DNA of 64,000 nucleotides from Bifidobacterium catenulatum subsp. kashiwanohense JCM 15439 = DSM 21854 (GTDB lineage Bacteria; Actinomycetota; Actinomycetes; Actinomycetales; Bifidobacteriaceae). The notes beneath the pieces were generated by a model. It was given only the letters and a program-made list of their open reading frames with translations, was not told the origin of the DNA and ran no database searches. This document shows positions 4,598 to 22,035 of the stretch, in pieces. The DNA is taken from NCBI RefSeq assembly GCF_001042615.1, contig NZ_AP012327.1:1736001-1800000 (forward strand), read 5' to 3'. Positions within the stretch are counted from its first letter, which is position 1. Each line of letters begins with the position of its first letter. The position numbers and the translations under genes were made by a program.

Positions 4598-4647
4598 CCC
4601 CCCTATCCTGAAACAAATACTTGTCCACTCATACAAGTCCAGATTCC

Positions 4648-4873
4648 TCCAGCCACTGGAGAAATCATCCCGCCAGAAGCCCTTCCAACAGGCAAAAACC
4701 TCCAGTCACTGGAACAATCACCCCGCCAAGAACGTCATCAGCATCCCAAAACCTCCAGTGACTGGAAGAATCCAGACTCCAAAACCCACCCTAACTGACC
4801 AGTTTCTTCCATTCACTGGAAGAAACACCCCGCTTAGAACCTCACCAGCGTCCCAAAACCTCCAGCCACTGGA
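4648..4873. repeat. Five-copy 53-bp array of the palindrome TCCAGTCACTGGA (array 1)
   Basis: The 13-bp palindrome TCCAGYCACTGGA starts at 4648, 4701, 4754, 4808 and 4861, that is every 53-54 bp. Each core is flanked by CT on the left and GAA on the right, giving an imperfect palindrome of about 20 bp. Linkers are partly conserved (AATCACCCCGCC just after the core, CATCCCAAAACC just before the next one), so this is a degenerate tandem repeat rather than a set of unrelated spacers. It fills the gap between tetR (stop 4597) and glycerate kinase (start 4939). A second array with the same period is at 21124-21349. Confidence 0.85.
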
Positions 4874-4938
4874 AGAAATGGTCACGTCTGGAGGCAGCTG
4901 TTGTAGCCTAAACTTGGGAAGACGTAAAGGAGGCATGT

Positions 4939-6465: not shown

Positions 6466-8808
6466 TTACGCGACGGTGAAGGTGGTACGCTTCAAGTGTT
6501 CGCGACGGCTGGAATGGCCGATAAGCACTTCGAACTCGCCCGGTTCGACGATTCGGTTGGCTTCAGAATCGACGATGGTGCAATCGGAAACCGGAATGTC
6601 GAAGGCAACAATCTTGCTTTCGCCTGGTTCGAGTTTCACACGCTGGAATGCCTTGAGTTCACGATCAGTCCAGCTGTAGGAAGTCACGATGTCGCCGATG
6701 TAGAGCTGCACTACTTCCATGCCCTTGCGATCGCCCGTATTGGTGAGGGTGATTTCGGCATGCACGGTGTCGGTTTCGGTGAATATGCCGGATTCCGGAA
6801 CGTTGGTGATGGTCGGATCTCCGTATTCGAACGTGGTGTAGCTCAGACCCTCGCCGAATGCGAATGCCGGATTCTGCGTAAGGTCGGCGTAACGGTTGCC
6901 GTGCTGTCCGCGAATCTGGTTGTAATAGACCGGCAGCTGGCCTGCATGACGTGGGAAGGTGATCGGCAGGCGTCCGCTCGGCTCGGTTTCGCCGAGGATG
7001 ATTTCGGCGATGGCCTGGCCGCCCTTCATGCCCGGGCTTGGAGCCCACAGCAGAGCCGAAGTGCCTTCGGCCGGTGTTTCGTCAACAATCACACCGTTGG
7101 TACCGATCACGGATGCCGGCAGTACCTGCGGCTTGGAGCTGACGAGCACCACCACGAACGGCTTGCCGGTTTCGCGAGCCACGTTCGACAGCGCGTCGAT
7201 CAGTGCATTCTGGCCGCCGAGCAGTTCAAGCGTAGCGGTGGAGCAGCCTTCACCAATGGCTTGAATCACATCACCCACCACAGCCACGATCAGGTCGCTT
7301 TGGCGAGCGTTTTCCACGGCTTCATCGAGCAGTGCGCGGTCGAGCTTGGCGGAAACGCCGATCTTCGGGCGAGGCTGGCCATCCGGGTAGAACTCGCCTT
7401 CCGGATCAGGCACCAAATCCACGATATTGGCACCGCGGGAGTACACGACCTCGCAGCCTTCCGGAGAGAGCTGCTTGAAGCCATCAAGCACGGTGGTGAT
7501 CATCTCGCGCGGGTGGCCGTCAGGCATCCAGTTGATCTGACCGGAGCTGCCCGCCCAGTCGCCCAGCTGGGTCTGGGCGTCATCGGCGAGCGGACCAACG
7601 ACCGCGATACGCTTCGCACCGGCCACGTTGAACGGCAGTGAACCGTCGTTCTTCAGCAATGCCACGGCTTCGCGAGCCACTTCAAGGTTGAGCTGCTGAT
7701 GCTCTTCGGAACCGATCACTGCATCAATACGCTTCTGGTCGGGCAAGCGTGGATCTTCGAACAGTCCAAGACGGAACTTCAGTGCGAGAATACGAGCCAC
7801 GGCGGCATCGATCAACGATTCGTCAAGCAGACCGGTCTTCACGGCTTCGATCGCACCCTCGTAGAACTTTGGCGTGGTCATCACCAAGTCGTTGCCGGAC
7901 TTGACCGCATCGGCAGCAGCCTGCACATAGTCAGGCTTGACCTTCTGCTCCCACACGGAACGGCCGACGTTGTCCCAGTCGGTGATGAGCGTGCCCTGAT
8001 AGTTCCAAGCGCCACGCAGTTTGTCGGAAAGCAGCCACTTGTTGAAGGTGACCGGCACGCCTTCGATGGATTCGTAGCCGAGCATGAAGGTGCCACAGCC
8101 TTCCTTGGCTACGCGTTCGAATGGCGGCAGGAACCAAGATTCCAGCTTGCGGTGGCTCAGGTCGGCTTCGGAAGCGTCACGCCCTCCCTGTGTTTCGGAA
8201 TAGCCTGCGAAATGCTTGGCGCATGCGAGGATCGCATCTTTGGCGAGCGGCTCGCCCGCCTTGGCTCCACCTTGATAGCCCTTGACAATGGACGATGCCA
8301 TTTCGCCAATCAGGTACGGATCTTCGCCAAAGGTTTCGTCCACGCGGCCCCAACGGGTGTCTCGCGCGATGCACAGCACCGGGGAGAACGTCCAATGCAC
8401 GCCGGTGGTTGACACTTCCTCGGCGGTGGCACGGCCTGCGGCCTGTACCTTTTCGGAATCCCATGTGGTTGCCATGCCTAGCTGTTCCGGGAAAATGGTG
8501 GCTCCCGGCCAGAAGGAATAGCCGTGAATGCAGTCGTCGCCGATCACCAGCGGAATGCCGAGACGGGTTTTGGCGTTCACCGTTTCCACGGCTTTCGGCA
8601 GATCGGACGGCGAGGTGTGCAGAATGGAACCAACGTGCTTGTTGACGATCAGATCGTCCAAATCGCCGCTTCGCGCGTCAAGCTGCATCATCTGTCCGAC
8701 TTTTTCCTCAAGGGTCATGCGACCAAGCAGATCGTCGATGCGTTCCTCAGTGGGAAGTTCCGGATTTTTATAGGGCAGATTTACCGTATTTTCAGTGGTT
8801 TCGGCCAT
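6466..8808 (-). CDS. Beta-glucosidase, glycoside hydrolase family 3 (second)
   Basis: A 780-residue GH3 enzyme of the BglX-like branch, starting MAETTENTVNLPYKNPELPT and then RIDDLLGRMTLEEKVGQMMQ. The catalytic nucleophile is Asp in TLITDWDNVG. The C-terminal fibronectin III-like domain is VVQLYIGDIVTSYSWTDREL. No signal peptide, so cytoplasmic. The frame stays open to 8895, but the ATG at 8808 matches where GH3 proteins begin. The 19-bp palindrome at 8844-8862 just upstream is nearly identical to one upstream of the MFS transporter at 16329, so the two genes are probably co-regulated. The expected substrates are gluco-oligosaccharides such as gentiobiose or laminaribiose (inference). Confidence 0.9.
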   Translation of the reverse strand: MAETTENTVNLPYKNPELPTEERIDDLLGRMTLEEKVGQMMQLDARSGDLDDLIVNKHVGSILHTSPSDLPKAVETVNAKTRLGIPLVIGDDCIHGYSFWPGATIFPEQLGMATTWDSEKVQAAGRATAEEVSTTGVHWTFSPVLCIARDTRWGRVDETFGEDPYLIGEMASSIVKGYQGGAKAGEPLAKDAILACAKHFAGYSETQGGRDASEADLSHRKLESWFLPPFERVAKEGCGTFMLGYESIEGVPVTFNKWLLSDKLRGAWNYQGTLITDWDNVGRSVWEQKVKPDYVQAAADAVKSGNDLVMTTPKFYEGAIEAVKTGLLDESLIDAAVARILALKFRLGLFEDPRLPDQKRIDAVIGSEEHQQLNLEVAREAVALLKNDGSLPFNVAGAKRIAVVGPLADDAQTQLGDWAGSSGQINWMPDGHPREMITTVLDGFKQLSPEGCEVVYSRGANIVDLVPDPEGEFYPDGQPRPKIGVSAKLDRALLDEAVENARQSDLIVAVVGDVIQAIGEGCSTATLELLGGQNALIDALSNVARETGKPFVVVLVSSKPQVLPASVIGTNGVIVDETPAEGTSALLWAPSPGMKGGQAIAEIILGETEPSGRLPITFPRHAGQLPVYYNQIRGQHGNRYADLTQNPAFAFGEGLSYTTFEYGDPTITNVPESGIFTETDTVHAEITLTNTGDRKGMEVVQLYIGDIVTSYSWTDRELKAFQRVKLEPGESKIVAFDIPVSDCTIVDSEANRIVEPGEFEVLIGHSSRREHLKRTTFTVA

Positions 8809-8843
8809 GGATTGCTCACTTTCTTCATTGAAGCGACTTCCTT

Positions 8844-8862
8844 TAATTACCAATTGGTAGTT
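8844..8862. promoter_or_regulatory. TetR operator candidate TACCAATTGGTA
   Basis: The 19-mer contains the perfect palindrome TACCAATTGGTA (8848-8859). Read on the minus strand it is AACTACCAATTGGTAATTA, differing at two positions from the site at 17739-17757 ahead of the MFS transporter. It lies 36 bp upstream of the GH3 start. Confidence 0.6.
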
Positions 8863-8909
8863 TAGTATATCATATACACATCCGCAACTCGACATAACCC
8901 CGTCAACGC

Positions 8910-8982: not shown

Positions 8983-9306
8983 TCAACGATATGCATCCCA
9001 CAACGGAGATGGAAACAGCATGTTTTCCATCTGAGCCCACTCTTTGCATAAATCAACTTCAGGCTCGCGCAACCACCATAATTGCACACCATCCATGATT
9101 TCCATGGCCTTACGCACCACCGGTCGCATACTCGACTTCCATGAACCCAATTGCGGAGGAACCAGCCAAGGATATTGCGAATAGTTCTCCCAAATATCGT
9201 CCATACGAGCCGTGAATTCATCATGCAACGGATGTTCAGGATTCAACGATTCCGCAGAAAGCACGGTAAACCTTGAAACAGACACCCCCAAGTACGCCAA
9301 AACCAA
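8983..9306 (-). pseudogene. Truncated TetR regulator (C-terminal domain only)
   Basis: The 107-residue reading (LSAESLNPEHPLHDEFTARM to MLFPSPLWDAYR) is closely similar to the last half of the intact TetR at 12192 (LAAESLNPDHPLHDEFMGRM to LLFPAPLWDACR). Similarity stops at about position 9272, and the first 15 or so residues of the open frame are unrelated. The DNA-binding domain is absent. The junction coincides with the start of the AT-rich cassette, so the 5' half was probably lost when that DNA entered. It cannot act as a repressor. Confidence 0.75.
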
Positions 9307-9401
9307 GCGTCACTATATGTGGACGCAGCAATGAACAATTCCCCTATGACAACTAGCATGGGGAGACATTATTTGTAAAGCATAAAAGAAGGTCCATTCA
9401 A

Positions 9402-10640
9402 ATGGAGAAGCCGAACGATATTAAAAGAGACTCCATATCAGTGAATTACTTTTTGAATACTGCTGCGTACAGCGGTCTCTTCTCCCTTCTTTCGGTTATT
9501 CTCACCGGCCAAGTTTCTGCGGCGTCATCGCTATATGTTGGGCTGGCGCTCGGAATTTTATCTCTTTTTTCTAGAGGCAGTACTGTTTTTATAGGTAGCC
9601 TGATTGAGCGTTTCTCAACGGTATCCCTCACCGAGACCGGTTTCGGATTCATGGTTTTTTCACTTTTGCTGCTACAACCGGCAATGGGTGGTTTTATCGG
9701 CTTCCTTTTTGCGGATTTGGCTTTGCTGGGACTCGGTCTTTCATTGGTTAATTTTGCCCTACGAGGGCATATCATCGCTACAGTAAAGGATAAAAAAATT
9801 CAGGCTTCTTTGTTTGCTTTAGTGACCATGGCAGCCAATCTTGGATCCGCGATTGGACCTCTGGGTTCGAATTACATATATAAGGCTTTCGGACAAACGC
9901 TCTTTATTGCAATCATCGTCGGACTCTATGCTTTTTCTGCTTTACTAGCTCCAATAGCGCTGACTCATCATGTCTTCATACGCAATGAGAAAAGCGGCGA
10001 GGAAAACACTTCCTCCATCGTGAAGACCATTACAGACTCGCTGAAAAGTCCCGGTACGGTTCTTGCCATCCTGGCGGTGTTCGTGGGCAGTATCATGAAT
10101 GGTCAGCTTTTTGCCGGAATGGCATTGGAATTCCACTCGTTATCCGATAGTCCAGTCATAAGAGGATTGTTCTATTCCATTGATGCCATATCGGTCATAG
10201 CACTGCAAATGCCGGTAAGTAAGATCATCTCGCGCAATATGACCAAAGAACATAATGCCACCTCATTCATAGTCAAAAGCCTGGGGATTTATGGAATTTC
10301 CTTCGCACTATTCGCCTGCGGAGTCTCGTCGTACTGGTGGATATGCATCATTTCCTTGGTTGTGTTCTCCATTGCAGAATGCATCTATGCGCCATTAATC
10401 AATATTGCTCTGGTAGAGGCACAGCCAGATAAGCCTTTGGTGGACATTCTGAACTATCGGCTGATAATTGCAGCCATTGGTGAATCGGCAGGCTCATTCC
10501 TTGGCGGTTGGATCGTTCCGGCACTACGTCCTGCAGGATTGACGGCTTGGTATTGGTGTGCACTGGCGTTAGTGGGAATAATGCCTGCAGTCGTCACTAA
10601 TCAAATTAGAAAACGTGGACAAAGAATCATTCGTCATTGA
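9402..10640 (+). CDS. MFS transporter of the AT-rich cassette
   Basis: A 412-residue membrane protein with about 12 hydrophobic segments, beginning MEKPNDIKRDSISVNYFLNT. The SLIERFSTVSLTETG loop after the second helix corresponds to the MFS loop 2-3, and the pattern of paired helices with a central charged loop (RNEKSGEENTSSIVKTITDS) fits the MFS fold. A ribosome site AAGAAGG precedes the ATG. Codon use and base composition are visibly more AT-rich than in neighbouring genes. It is followed after 39 bp by the ATP-grasp gene, so the two form an operon. It probably exports the product of that enzyme (inference). Confidence 0.75.
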   Translation: MEKPNDIKRDSISVNYFLNTAAYSGLFSLLSVILTGQVSAASSLYVGLALGILSLFSRGSTVFIGSLIERFSTVSLTETGFGFMVFSLLLLQPAMGGFIGFLFADLALLGLGLSLVNFALRGHIIATVKDKKIQASLFALVTMAANLGSAIGPLGSNYIYKAFGQTLFIAIIVGLYAFSALLAPIALTHHVFIRNEKSGEENTSSIVKTITDSLKSPGTVLAILAVFVGSIMNGQLFAGMALEFHSLSDSPVIRGLFYSIDAISVIALQMPVSKIISRNMTKEHNATSFIVKSLGIYGISFALFACGVSSYWWICIISLVVFSIAECIYAPLINIALVEAQPDKPLVDILNYRLIIAAIGESAGSFLGGWIVPALRPAGLTAWYWCALALVGIMPAVVTNQIRKRGQRIIRH

Positions 10641-10679
10641 AAGAAAAAGTCTTGGTGAGTACACCGGAAGGGGAATGAC

Positions 10680-11867
10680 ATGAAAGTATTATTGCTGCAA
10701 CAGCCCAAATCTTTCTCAAATTATCCTAAATGGATTGAGGAAATCCAAGAACGTTTCGATTGTTTAGAAGTTATGGTCTTCACCTCGAACGATCGAGCCG
10801 CACACCATAGTTGGCCGAGCTCCGTCATCAAGGAAATCGAGGTTTCCGATTATTCCTCTGATAGCGCTACCGCAAAATTCTTTGATATTGTCAGGAAATT
10901 TAAACCAGATAGGATAGTTTCCAGCTCAGAGGAAGACGTACTGAGGGTTGCAGAGGCGAGAAGTTTATTTGGAATTCCCGGTTTACAGCATGAACTGGCG
11001 TTAAGCTGTCGAGATAAAGTCACGATGAAACAATCGGCCCTTGATGCCGGATTAAAGATTATTCCCTATACCACCTGCCAAGGCTTTGGAGATATTATTT
11101 CGGCGTTCGATCGTTGGGAGACGGTTGTTCTCAAACCTCGATGGGGCGCAGGGTCTGCAGGCATTACGATATTGCATTCGAAAGATGACCTGCCCGCTTT
11201 AGCTACCAAGCCGGAATTCATACGAAACGTGCATTCAAACCAGTATTACTTAGAGGAATATTGTTCCGGTTCCGTCTACCATGTGGATGTAGTCTATATC
11301 AATTCCGGTTCGATTCTGATCTCACCATCACGGTATCTTGTCCCGCCACTGGATTTCGAGAAACAAAACACCGGTTCCGTGATGTTGGATGAGAACGGTG
11401 CCGACTATTCCGAGCTGCTCCGACTGACAAAGCAATTAATTGCATCTTTCAACGATCAGACGATTCCGAATGTGATGCATATCGAATTCTATAAGAATGA
11501 AACCGGTGATTTCGTATTCGGGGAAATGGCGGCACGCAGAGGAGGCGGTCTCATCAAGCAGGAGCTGGCAGCCGCCTATGGCATAGACCAAAGCAAGGCC
11601 AACTTCCTATTGGAACTTGGTCTTGTCGATGCGGATGCGAATATTACGCGATCATCTCAGTATGGCATACTGCTGGAAACCGCTGGATTGAACTGGCCAA
11701 AGGAAAAAGAAATCCCGGATTGGGCGGTTTTGGAATCTGTGGGCAAGAAAAAAGGTATCGCTCATAACTCTGTTGATTCTGACAGGAAATTTCTTATTTC
11801 CGGCAAGAATGAATCTGAGATTATTCAACGTTCTAATTATCTTATAAATAGTCAATATAATGAGTAA
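10680..11867 (+). CDS. ATP-grasp ligase of the AT-rich cassette
   Basis: A 395-residue ATP-grasp enzyme. The N-terminal domain begins MKVLLLQQPKSFSNYPKWIE, the ATP-binding strand is TVVLKPRWGAGSAGITIL (about residues 155-172), and the metal-binding segment is HIEFYKNETGDFVFGEMAAR followed by RGGG (about 261-285). This resembles carboxylate-amine ligases of the BacD/carbamoyl-phosphate synthase-like group that join amino acids into dipeptides or modify carboxylates. A GGAAGGGG ribosome site precedes the ATG. Pairing with an MFS gene suggests synthesis and export of a small peptide-like metabolite. The substrate is unknown. Confidence 0.75.
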   Translation: MKVLLLQQPKSFSNYPKWIEEIQERFDCLEVMVFTSNDRAAHHSWPSSVIKEIEVSDYSSDSATAKFFDIVRKFKPDRIVSSSEEDVLRVAEARSLFGIPGLQHELALSCRDKVTMKQSALDAGLKIIPYTTCQGFGDIISAFDRWETVVLKPRWGAGSAGITILHSKDDLPALATKPEFIRNVHSNQYYLEEYCSGSVYHVDVVYINSGSILISPSRYLVPPLDFEKQNTGSVMLDENGADYSELLRLTKQLIASFNDQTIPNVMHIEFYKNETGDFVFGEMAARRGGGLIKQELAAAYGIDQSKANFLLELGLVDADANITRSSQYGILLETAGLNWPKEKEIPDWAVLESVGKKKGIAHNSVDSDRKFLISGKNESEIIQRSNYLINSQYNE

Positions 11868-12040
11868 AATTAACTTTTTACAGAGGGACAATTGTAACTA
11901 ATTCTGCAGCAGGTTCTATATATGACGAATTATTATGTAGAATTGGTAATTCTACTGAATCTAGACTCTTCCGTAAAATAATGATACTAGTATCGCTAGG
12001 GATGTTGGGAGCCAGCATTGGCGTCTATACGGGAAGCGCA
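11864..12040 (+). pseudogene. Possible MFS transporter fragment
   Basis: The frame beginning right after the ATP-grasp stop reads VTNSAAGSIYDELLCRIGNS, then ESRLFRKIMILVSLGMLGASIG. This resembles the middle of drug-type MFS proteins, where SGTDxALLYDSL is followed by a short loop and the next helix. There is no start or full domain, and after about 12040 the reading becomes unrelated serine/threonine-rich sequence. I read it as a remnant of a third cassette gene. Similarity is judged by eye only. Confidence 0.35.
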
Positions 12041-12191
12041 GCAGGTAGTCTGACTGCATCAAAATGGTCGACATCTCAAGAAACCAGCATGTCTCTTTCA
12101 GCAAACTTTTCAGGCACTACCACAATAGAAGATAAGCAAAATGAGGGTGGCCGTCAGGTCACCCCCGAACGTATGCGGAACACACATAAAA

Positions 12192-12827
12192 TCAGCGGCA
12201 TGCATCCCAGAGGGGCGCGGGAAACAGCAGATTCTCCATTTCGGACCATTCCTCACACAAGTCCACTTCCGGTTCGCGCAGCCACCACAGCTGAATGCCA
12301 TCCATGATTTCCATGGCTTTGCGCACCACTGGCCGCATGCTGCCGGCCCATGCGCCCAATTGCGGCGGAACCACCCACGGGTATTTCGAGTAGTGTTCCC
12401 AGATGTCCTCCATGCGTCCCATGAATTCGTCATGCAATGGGTGATCCGGGTTCAGGGATTCCGCCGCCAGCACGGTGAACAGCTGCACCATCATGCGGCG
12501 GCGCGAGTTGTGTTTCACCAGGTAGCGCAGATACGCGGGAAAATGCGGCGCAGACGGGTCGCTGCCCGGCATGCCCGAAGAGAAGAAGTCCTCCGGCGTG
12601 CCGGTCTGCCCGTAATATTCGTCATATACCAGCGCCAGCATTTTGTCTTTGTTGTCGACGTATCGCAACACGCCTTGTTTGGAGATGCCGACCCTGTCGG
12701 CCACGTCCTGGATAGAAATGCCATTGAACCCACGCTCACTGATCAGCTGAACCGCAGCATCCAGCACTTCCTCACGCCGCTCCTGCGGTGATTTTCGGAT
12801 ACGTTTCGAAGTCTCTTCCTCTGCCAT
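12192..12827 (-). CDS. TetR-family repressor next to GH5/GH30 genes
   Basis: A 211-residue TetR protein: basic start MAEEETSKRIRKSPQERREE, helix-turn-helix GFNGISIQDVADRVGISKQG, and a C-terminal ligand domain with MEIMDGIQLWWLREPEVDLC. It is the intact paralogue of the truncated copy at 8983. A short GGGTG/CACCC hairpin at 12145-12164 follows its stop. It lies on the same strand as the GH5 gene (12875) and GH30 gene (14620), which are its likely targets, but I did not find a convincing shared operator. Confidence 0.87.
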   Translation of the reverse strand: MAEEETSKRIRKSPQERREEVLDAAVQLISERGFNGISIQDVADRVGISKQGVLRYVDNKDKMLALVYDEYYGQTGTPEDFFSSGMPGSDPSAPHFPAYLRYLVKHNSRRRMMVQLFTVLAAESLNPDHPLHDEFMGRMEDIWEHYSKYPWVVPPQLGAWAGSMRPVVRKAMEIMDGIQLWWLREPEVDLCEEWSEMENLLFPAPLWDACR

Positions 12828-12874: not shown

Positions 12875-14074
12875 CTATGGCACGTCATCGTGAGAGGTAT
12901 CCGCCCGAATCCATCCATGACGCCATACGCGAGTCAGATCCCACGCCTCAAGATTGCCGCCGTTGCGAGGATCCCGCGGCGGTTTCCCTTCGCCACTACC
13001 CGGTTTCGCGGAGCGCGCAAGCTGGTAGCTCCAATAGATCTGCCCCGCCGACACGTCCCATGCCGCGCGTTGCAATCGTGACACTTGGCGGTATGCAGCC
13101 GATCGGTTTTGGCTGTGTAGGGCCCACCGATTCTCCACGCACCACTCGCCCACCAGCACGGGAATACGACGGGCCGCCGAACGGATGGCGATGCTACTCG
13201 CGCCCACCAGCATCCGGTACAGCCATGGCAGTCGCCGCGATCGCAGGTACAGCCGGCGTGCCGGTCCCGAAAACAGCTGATCCTCCATCGCTATGAGATA
13301 CTGATGGGTGTCGAGCATGACGTTGCACATGCCAGCACGACGAAACCAACCGCCCCAGCGGAGTAGTCGGAAACCGTCATGGAATACGATCACGGTTTCC
13401 GGACGTAGCACGGCGCGCAACCGGGCGTAAGCGTCGCGGTAGAAGCGCTTCAGAAACCGCAGTGAGACATACGCGCTACCGGAAGCCTCCTGAGAGTCTT
13501 TCGCCGTGTTCGACGTGCTATGGAACACTGACCAGCTCACTGGTTCGTTGAGTACTTCGATGCTGTGCAGGGCCGGTTCGTCGCGGTATCGGCGAGCCAA
13601 TCGCTCCAGCACGTTCAGCGTGTACTCCACCAAGTCCGTATTCTGTGCCCATTTGCACACACCCGTCAGACCGCCGTTGTCGAAACCGTTCTGCGATTCG
13701 GGAACGGTATGCAGGTCAATCATAATCTTCAATCCCGTCTCCCGCGCCCAACGGAACGCGCGGTCGAGGTACGTAATGCAGCCCGGATGCCCGGGCCAGT
13801 CGCCGAAGATGAAATACGGTATGGGAATGCGTACGAGGTTGATTCCGTGACCGACGATAATACGGAAATCCTCCAGGGTGACGTAGGTTTCGCGGTGCCG
13901 GCGCAGTTCCTCGGCTAGATTCCGTTCGGACCAGAGGGATACGTGCGTGCGGTGCATCCAGATTTCATCGTCTTCGGCGCTGCGGGTGAACGGTTTCGGA
14001 TCCATCCATTTCTCCAGCACCAGCCAGTTGCCGAGGTTCACGCCGTCGATTCGCTCGTCGATGCCTAGCACCAT
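12875..14074 (-). CDS. GH5 beta-glucanase (exo-beta-1,3-glucanase-like)
   Basis: A 399-residue glycoside hydrolase family 5 protein. DGVNLGNWLVLEKWMDP near the start is the hallmark of the exo-beta-1,3/1,6-glucanase branch (yeast Exg1-like). Further landmarks are VRIPIPYFIFGDW, the acid/base Glu in IEVLNEPVS (about residue 180), DTHQYL, and the nucleophile Glu in VLVGEWCVENRW (about 320). No signal peptide. The frame stays open to 14158, but I start at the ATG 14074, giving MVLGIDERIDGVNLGNW. A start at 14158 would add 28 basic residues. It probably trims short beta-1,3- or beta-1,6-gluco-oligosaccharides inside the cell. Confidence 0.85.
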   Translation of the reverse strand: MVLGIDERIDGVNLGNWLVLEKWMDPKPFTRSAEDDEIWMHRTHVSLWSERNLAEELRRHRETYVTLEDFRIIVGHGINLVRIPIPYFIFGDWPGHPGCITYLDRAFRWARETGLKIMIDLHTVPESQNGFDNGGLTGVCKWAQNTDLVEYTLNVLERLARRYRDEPALHSIEVLNEPVSWSVFHSTSNTAKDSQEASGSAYVSLRFLKRFYRDAYARLRAVLRPETVIVFHDGFRLLRWGGWFRRAGMCNVMLDTHQYLIAMEDQLFSGPARRLYLRSRRLPWLYRMLVGASSIAIRSAARRIPVLVGEWCVENRWALHSQNRSAAYRQVSRLQRAAWDVSAGQIYWSYQLARSAKPGSGEGKPPRDPRNGGNLEAWDLTRVWRHGWIRADTSHDDVP

Positions 14075-14162
14075 GCGTCTCACCGCCCTTACGTTCGGGG
14101 GTTGCCCGACTTTTCGCTTCCGCCCATCACAACCCATGGCAAAACCCATTCGGCCCAATGGG

Positions 14163-21025: not shown

Positions 21026-21123
21026 TATAACATTTTCCCATGTTCTAAAGCTCAACTAATCGTAATAAAAAACCAATCAATCACCGCAATCCATACAAAA
21101 CGCTATCCCAGCGGGCAAATTCC

Positions 21124-21349
21124 TCCAGCCGCTGGAGCAATTTTCCCGCGAACACGCCTCCTAAACGTCCCGATCCCTCCAGTCACTGGAGGAATCCTCT
21201 CTCCCAAAGCCTCCCCAGCGACCCAAAACATCCAGTCACTGGAGGAAACAGGACAATCAACAGCGTTTCAGCAGACAAATCCCTCCAGTCACTGGAAGAA
21301 TCACCCCGCTCACAGACCCCTTAGCGTCCTGATTCTTCCAGCGAGTGGA
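21124..21349. repeat. Five-copy 53-bp array of the palindrome TCCAGTCACTGGA (array 2)
   Basis: Cores begin at 21124, 21178, 21231, 21284 and 21337, again every 53-54 bp, with the same flanks (CT left, GAA right) and related linkers (one reads AGAATCACCCCGCT as in array 1). It lies just beyond the stop of the tetR at 21406 and before GH42. On the + strand the motif has the same orientation as in array 1, but the adjacent tetR is on the opposite strand. Confidence 0.85.
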
Positions 21350-21405
21350 AGAATTGGGACGCGAAGGGCTATAGAAACACAGCCCGCAAGAGAGTTGCAC
21401 ATGGC

Positions 21406-22035
21406 TTAGCGGTAGCTGTCCCAGACAGGTGAGGGGAAGATCATCTTTTCGAAGGCGAGCCATTCATCGTAGAAATCGATGGGCGGCTTACGCGTCCAAC
21501 GCAGTTGAATGCCGTCCATCGCTTCCAAGCTTTGACGCACAATCGCACGCATATTCTCCCAACCACCGATTTCAGGCGGCAATTTCCATGTGTACTGGGA
21601 ATAGTGTTCCCACACGTATTTCGGACGATTCTCGAAATAGTCGTGCAACGGATGGCCCTCGCTGAAAGACTCGGTTTCCAGCACCATGTATAGCTGCAGC
21701 AAGCTACGTCGACTCTCATTGTAACGTACCAAAAAACGCAGGTATGCAGGGAACAGCATGCCTTCCGGATCGCTGCCCGGCAATCCGGATTTTGCAAAAT
21801 CAGCCGGAGTGCCTTCCTGATCATAATTGTCGGTGACTAGTAGCGACAACAACCGTTCCTTATTGCCGATGTAATGCAGCAGTCCAGGCTGGCTCATGCC
21901 GATCGCATCAGCAATGTCTTTCAATGACGTTCCGTAATATCCCTTTTCCCCGATAAGACGGCTCGCCGCAGTGATGATTTCCTTCTTACGTTCCTCAGGT
22001 GATTTACGAACACGTTTCTTCCCCTCATTACCCAT
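21406..22035 (-). CDS. TetR-family repressor, probable regulator of GH42
   Basis: A 209-residue TetR protein: MGNEGKKRVRKSPEERKKEI, helix-turn-helix GYYGTSLKDIADAIGMSQPG then LLHYIGNKERLL, and C-terminal LEAMDGIQLRWTRKPPIDFY. No good ribosome site is visible before the ATG. A copy of the GH42-type operator (22052-22067) lies only 17 bp upstream, so the promoter is very close and the message may be nearly leaderless. It is on the same strand as GH42, separated from it by repeat array 2 and sites A and B. Confidence 0.87.
   Translation of the reverse strand: MGNEGKKRVRKSPEERKKEIITAASRLIGEKGYYGTSLKDIADAIGMSQPGLLHYIGNKERLLSLLVTDNYDQEGTPADFAKSGLPGSDPEGMLFPAYLRFLVRYNESRRSLLQLYMVLETESFSEGHPLHDYFENRPKYVWEHYSQYTWKLPPEIGGWENMRAIVRQSLEAMDGIQLRWTRKPPIDFYDEWLAFEKMIFPSPVWDSYR

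Follow-up and report, generated by a model that had tools for sequence, protein, structure and literature searches.

An AT-rich ligase-transporter cassette beside a TetR remnant in Bifidobacterium: an acquired, candidate module for making and exporting a short peptide

Why would a gut bifidobacterium carry two AT-rich genes, one for a transporter and one for an ATP-dependent ligase, set against the remnant of a TetR gene? The question is raised by a stretch of Bifidobacterium catenulatum subsp. kashiwanohense JCM 15439 = DSM 21854 (hereafter the window: 64,000 nucleotides, positions 1,736,001 to 1,800,000 of contig NZ_AP012327.1), in which a gene for a major facilitator superfamily (MFS) transporter is followed by one for an ATP-grasp enzyme. 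We favor, as the probable explanation, that the pair constitutes an acquired, functional two-gene module for making and exporting a short peptide. The ATP-grasp enzyme would use ATP to build a short peptide (a dipeptide is most likely) from amino acids or from one amino acid plus a different carboxylate, and the MFS protein would then export it. The locus was compared with 112 genomes; G019 is labeled as the same species, and G001, G060, G027 and G051 as the same genus. The cassette has the following parts.

Positions 9272-9401, strand not applicable: left end of the cassette and leader; similarity to the copy at another locus in genome G027 runs from 9276.
Positions 9402-10640, plus strand: MFS transporter gene; open reading frame (ORF) of 412 amino acids, a probable exporter (PF07690, E = 2e-17).
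Positions 10680-11867, plus strand: ATP-grasp gene of the L-amino-acid-ligase type; ORF of 395 amino acids (PF13535, match to RizA).
Positions 11894-12118, plus strand: decayed N-terminal relic of a sugar-porter-type MFS gene, with 59% identity to a longer relic in G051 (residues 1-76).
Positions 12004-12191, strand not applicable: right end of the inserted DNA, ~96% common with an alternative cassette in G040.

A first-pass annotation of this DNA had described an MFS and an ATP-grasp gene 39 bp apart, followed by an MFS-like fragment. Both genes are present in the ORF list of the window, on the plus strand and separated by exactly this gap. The MFS_1 domain scored 63.6 bits (curated cut-off 33.4), which identifies the first product as an MFS transporter, and its pairing with the ligase suggests that it may export the ligase product. 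A purine-rich stretch, read from the sequence, precedes the start of each gene and makes a single shared transcript plausible; a promoter and terminator scan returned signals no richer than in shuffled sequences. The fragment is also real, as its 225 bp match residues 1-76 of a decayed sugar-porter-type MFS protein, of which intact relatives of ~470 aa are common in bifidobacteria; the longer relic in G051 scored under the curated cut-off for Sugar_tr (E = 0.0009). Since this stretch is a transporter relic, a third gene or precursor peptide in the 3' region was ruled out, and no graspetide-type precursor peptide gene was found beside the ligase, the relic being the sole small downstream frame. 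The ORF list contains no transposase or integrase between 9272 and 12191.

Is the cassette foreign to its surroundings? Its guanine-plus-cytosine (GC) content of 0.444 lies below that of every non-overlapping 2732-bp stretch of the window, and GC at third codon positions in its two genes (0.465 and 0.467) is the lowest among the 27 long ORFs compared (median 0.623). The drop in composition had been placed at about 9272. While the cassette is the most AT-rich 2.7 kb, the drop already begins at ~8.6 kb (0.47 at 8600-8895 and 0.48 in the TetR remnant) and is followed by a smaller further step at 9272, so composition alone cannot fix the left border. This border was set by homology: similarity between the truncated and intact TetR copies stops at 9271, at the cassette start as had been proposed, and similarity to the G027 copy starts at 9276. 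The cassette is flanked by the following genes.

Positions 8983-9271, minus strand: 3' remnant of the resident TetR (codons ~113-211), 96.5% identical to the single TetR at the empty site of G037.
Positions 12192-12827, minus strand: intact TetR (PF00440), a diverged allele across the cassette from the remnant; identities to G037 and G069 are given below.
Positions 6466-8895, minus strand: left neighbor, a glycoside hydrolase family 3 beta-glucosidase-like gene (from its sequence) that adjoins the single TetR at empty sites.
Positions 12875-14158, minus strand: right neighbor, a glycoside hydrolase (family 5-like) gene (from its sequence) with homologs adjoining TetR in G069 and G037.

Relatives with an uninterrupted TetR do exist: in five genomes (G069, G037, G051, G027 and G045) the site is empty, with the beta-glucosidase gene beside one full TetR. 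As its near-identity to the single TetR of G037 shows, the remnant is the resident allele, and it is 75.1% identical to the intact TetR of the window. The C-terminal part of this intact copy is 74.7% identical to G037 and 86.9% to G069, and its middle part 95.0% to G069. In the simplest reading, the incoming DNA would have consisted of the cassette together with the diverged TetR; the join on the TetR side would have used homology and that inside the resident TetR none, so that both entered beside the resident gene and left its 3' part behind. The view that the cassette truncated a TetR gene accordingly needs qualifying: the resident copy was cut, but the intact diverged allele on the other side leaves one full TetR, and loss of the sole TetR was rejected. 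A further TetR paralog (50% identical) lies 9 kb downstream at 21409-22026, and the genus has many related TetR copies. Elsewhere in the window, imperfect 53-bp intergenic repeats, each with a CCTCCAGTCACTGGA palindrome at its core, lie at 4646-4878, with similar sequence at ~21108-21357; this repeat region falls within a stretch missing from G001, G019 and G060.

How widely, and how recently, has the cassette moved? Any match was found in 12 of the 112 genomes and the ligase itself in six (84-100% identity). Five genomes have intact copies of both genes; the G051 ligase gene is fragmented, and many stops interrupt the MFS gene there. A homologous MFS-ligase unit occupies another locus in two genomes, G027 and G051, and the G027 MFS protein is 83% identical to that of the window. 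The cassette differs from the copies in G001, G019 and G060 by 9, 10 and 11 positions per 2732 bp (0.3-0.4%), whereas the corresponding differences outside 4.9-14.5 kb are 12.3, 2.9 and 6.0%. Divergence rises on both sides, to ~1.9% in TetR, 1.3-2.3% in the glycosidase on the right, 3.5-3.6% in that on the left and 9-10% in a glycerate-kinase-like gene; the low-divergence tract relative to G001 extends to ~20 kb. Between G001 and G019, the cassettes show 2 differences per 2919 bp while the flanks are 88.9% identical (~11% different). Constraint was ruled out as the cause of this near-identity because synonymous divergence (dS) is also tiny, at 0.008. A divergence minimum centered on the cassette, against backgrounds of 2.9-12.3%, therefore indicates recent spread between species. 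It fits recent transfer by recombination in flanking homologous DNA, and the cassette may have passed in this way among gut Bifidobacterium species through their shared neighboring genes. A single scan of genome contigs returned the G051 copy as its sole match, and a viral-contig scan with a five-ligase alignment returned no relative.

Horizontal acquisition, which the first-pass annotation had proposed, is thus strongly supported by the empty sites, patchy distribution, composition, divergence minimum and the presence, in two genomes, of a homologous unit at a different locus. Rather than sharing the genes at this site with native composition, most relatives are without them. An ancestral gene pair lost many times would agree with the occurrence of MFS homologs (42-45%) alone in G037, G040 and G117 (L065:5899-7137, L066:6010-7254 and L067:5823-7064), from which it follows that the transporter family can also occur with no ligase beside it. 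However, the different locus in G027 and G051, the TetR remnant that marks an insertion at the window site, the foreign composition and the near-identity across species make such an origin extremely improbable.

Have the genes been kept for function? Relative to the G027 copy, at dS ~0.68, the ligase has a ratio of nonsynonymous to synonymous divergence (dN/dS) of 0.076 and the MFS gene one of 0.134, and both have therefore been maintained for function by purifying selection. The opposite explanation, that the pair no longer functions and is what remains of a larger biosynthetic cluster, kept because selection acts on the adjoining sugar-use genes, could draw on the third gene being merely a relic and on the broken copy in G051. 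We consider it quite improbable, as both genes are intact in five genomes, dN/dS stays at 0.08-0.13 across dS ~0.7, and the divergence minimum sits on the cassette and not on the glycosidases.

What the ligase might make depends on the family to which it belongs. A PF13535 score of 28.2 bits (cut-off 27) identifies an ATP-grasp domain. In a single-sequence search, the first match was RizA (PDB 4wd3, E = 7e-26), the L-amino acid ligase of rhizocticin biosynthesis in Bacillus subtilis NBRC 3134, which aligns along most of the ligase length at low identity; BacD, the alanine-anticapsin ligase that together with the MFS exporter BacE serves bacilysin, was a weak match. A family profile built from 15 ligase relatives retrieved RizA (4e-66), BL00235 (1.7e-31) and BacD (1.5e-27), and on the housekeeping side a chain annotated as phosphoribosylglycinamide synthetase (1e-29), D-Ala-D-Ala ligase (2e-14) and PurK (4e-12). 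D-Ala-D-Ala ligase, PurK and carboxylases thus score much more weakly than RizA, BL00235 and BacD, and it is with these three that the window ligase groups, not with a known housekeeping enzyme; no close housekeeping relative was found in the sequence and profile searches. Residues E269, E282 and R286, assigned by alignment, are invariant in 15 relatives and match the RizA motif; from general knowledge of the fold, we take the glutamates to be those of the metal site and R286 to be the arginine that follows. By these comparisons, the protein is classed as an L-amino-acid-ligase-type enzyme. No second ligase match above threshold was detected in its own genome (2,337,234 bp, one contig), and the literature searched contained no paper linking such ligases to Bifidobacterium.

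The site itself has hosted more than one such cassette. G040 matches the window at 94-97% on either side of the cassette, yet the DNA in between holds a different MFS gene, one intact ATP-grasp gene (34% identity to the window ligase) and a second, shortened one. The two MFS proteins are essentially unrelated (17% identity). The TetR remnant of G040 is longer, reaching ~codon 72 with a stop, and the same sugar-porter relic is kept beside the intact TetR. In G040, either the first cassette may have been replaced or both may once have stood side by side and lost different parts. The full second cassette (MFS and two ligases) is found in G053 at another locus; the second ATP-grasp gene of G040 (L023:7848-8654) is without its middle part, and the G053 gene is complete (L022:7259-8473). 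In an unrooted tree, the window ligase (A), the first ligase of the second cassette (B1) and the ligase of the Vibrio tubiashii plasmid p251 fall into one group with a split support of 100. A bolder proposal is that the TetR slot serves as an exchange site for minimal peptide-making modules, where unrelated cassettes (AT-rich with one ligase, GC-rich with two) alternate and one is now sweeping gut bifidobacteria, its exported peptide acting on competitors or kin; we regard this as conceivable but rather doubtful.

Do more distant ligase relatives keep similar company? Eight plasmid loci with such relatives were read, and MFS genes recur near the ligases, a tendency with no background rate behind it. 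An MFS gene adjoins the matched ligase in Vibrio and Klebsiella plasmids, lies between two ligases in a Virgibacillus plasmid, and is found within ~5 kb in Priestia and Apilactobacillus kunkeei plasmids. The 33-kb honeybee-associated plasmid of A. kunkeei carries, at L100:86-18306, polyketide synthase (PKS)-type genes, three ATP-grasp-like genes, an MFS gene, a thymidylate synthase and a nucleotide hydrolase, and this region appears to be an unusual natural-product cluster. Priestia megaterium pBM700 (L101:3589-13852) combines two ATP-grasp genes, an MFS gene, an acetyltransferase and an aminotransferase with an extra 1-deoxy-D-xylulose 5-phosphate (DXP) reductoisomerase, possibly a self-resistant copy of a target.

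Several observations weigh against a peptide-making and exporting module. Two of the eight plasmid loci (Leisingera and Streptomyces NBC_00637) have no MFS gene nearby, and at the S. xanthii locus it is several genes away from the ligase. Different transporters occur at the different loci, in keeping with varied products; this says nothing on direction. Most plasmid clusters hold other biosynthetic genes (e.g., aminotransferases, PKS/non-ribosomal peptide synthetase genes and oxygenases), unlike the bifidobacterial cassettes, which no tailoring enzymes adjoin. As the ligase is broken in G051, the module is dispensable there. Structure prediction of the ligase, from the window sequence and two fragments only, reached a predicted local distance difference test score (pLDDT) of 39 and was not used.

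Two further explanations were weighed. In one, the ligase would couple a toxic gut amino acid or acid to an amino acid and the MFS protein would expel the conjugate, as detoxification or self-protection. The role proposed for BacD-type ligases is to mask toxic amino acids within dipeptides (PMC3684760), precursor-making genes are absent, and a resistance-like benefit would agree with the spread between species; however, no toxic substrate is known and the distant relatives sit in biosynthetic clusters, not as lone resistance genes, and we give this explanation a low probability. About equally low is that of a metabolic or nutritional role, in which ordinary amino acids would be joined to a dipeptide that serves storage, stress or overflow, at a level balanced by the MFS protein. 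That the cassette stands alone, with no tailoring enzymes, suggests common amino acids as its substrates, and proteinogenic amino acids are used by several of the known L-amino acid ligases (PMC6920838), yet rapid spread between species and different cassettes at one site would be unusual for housekeeping.

A minimal pathway for a peptide-like metabolite, as first suggested for this locus, is plausible given the family of the ligase, the purifying selection and the recurrent MFS neighbors, although the ligase is not BacD and stands without a tailoring enzyme; an antibiotic or antibacterial role of the product is conjecture. If a peptide is made and exported, the cassette would be among the smallest self-contained peptide-making modules, located in common human gut commensals and bearing the signature of very recent transfer between species, and a natural comparison is offered by G040, where this site holds a different ligase-exporter cassette.

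Known systems resemble the cassette in part. BacD is found by the profile of the window ligase family, but the window ligase scored 28.5 bits on the BacD equivalog model (cut-off 850), and among the adjacent genes (MFS, transporter relic, TetR and glycosidases) there are no bacABC-like or anticapsin-making genes. RizA is the nearest solved relative and shares the metal-site motif; identity is low, however, and phosphonate genes are absent among the ORFs adjoining the cassette. The Hil operons of Pantoea and Pseudomonas encode a PF13535 ligase and an MFS protein (HilD/HilE) proposed to make and export a dipeptide antibiotic, and BacD/BacE and HilD/HilE are published ligase-MFS parallels (PMC3684760). 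The cassette shares this combination, a likeness drawn from the description only, whereas the Hil operons also contain dioxygenases and a dehydrogenase, none of which occurs in the cassette. Finally, Vibrio tubiashii p251 differs in its GHMP kinase, aminotransferase, glutamate-cysteine-ligase-like and serine hydroxymethyltransferase genes and in an MFS gene that is not orthologous, but it holds the best plasmid match to the ligase (34%), with the MFS gene directly beside it in the order ATP-grasp, MFS, ATP-grasp.
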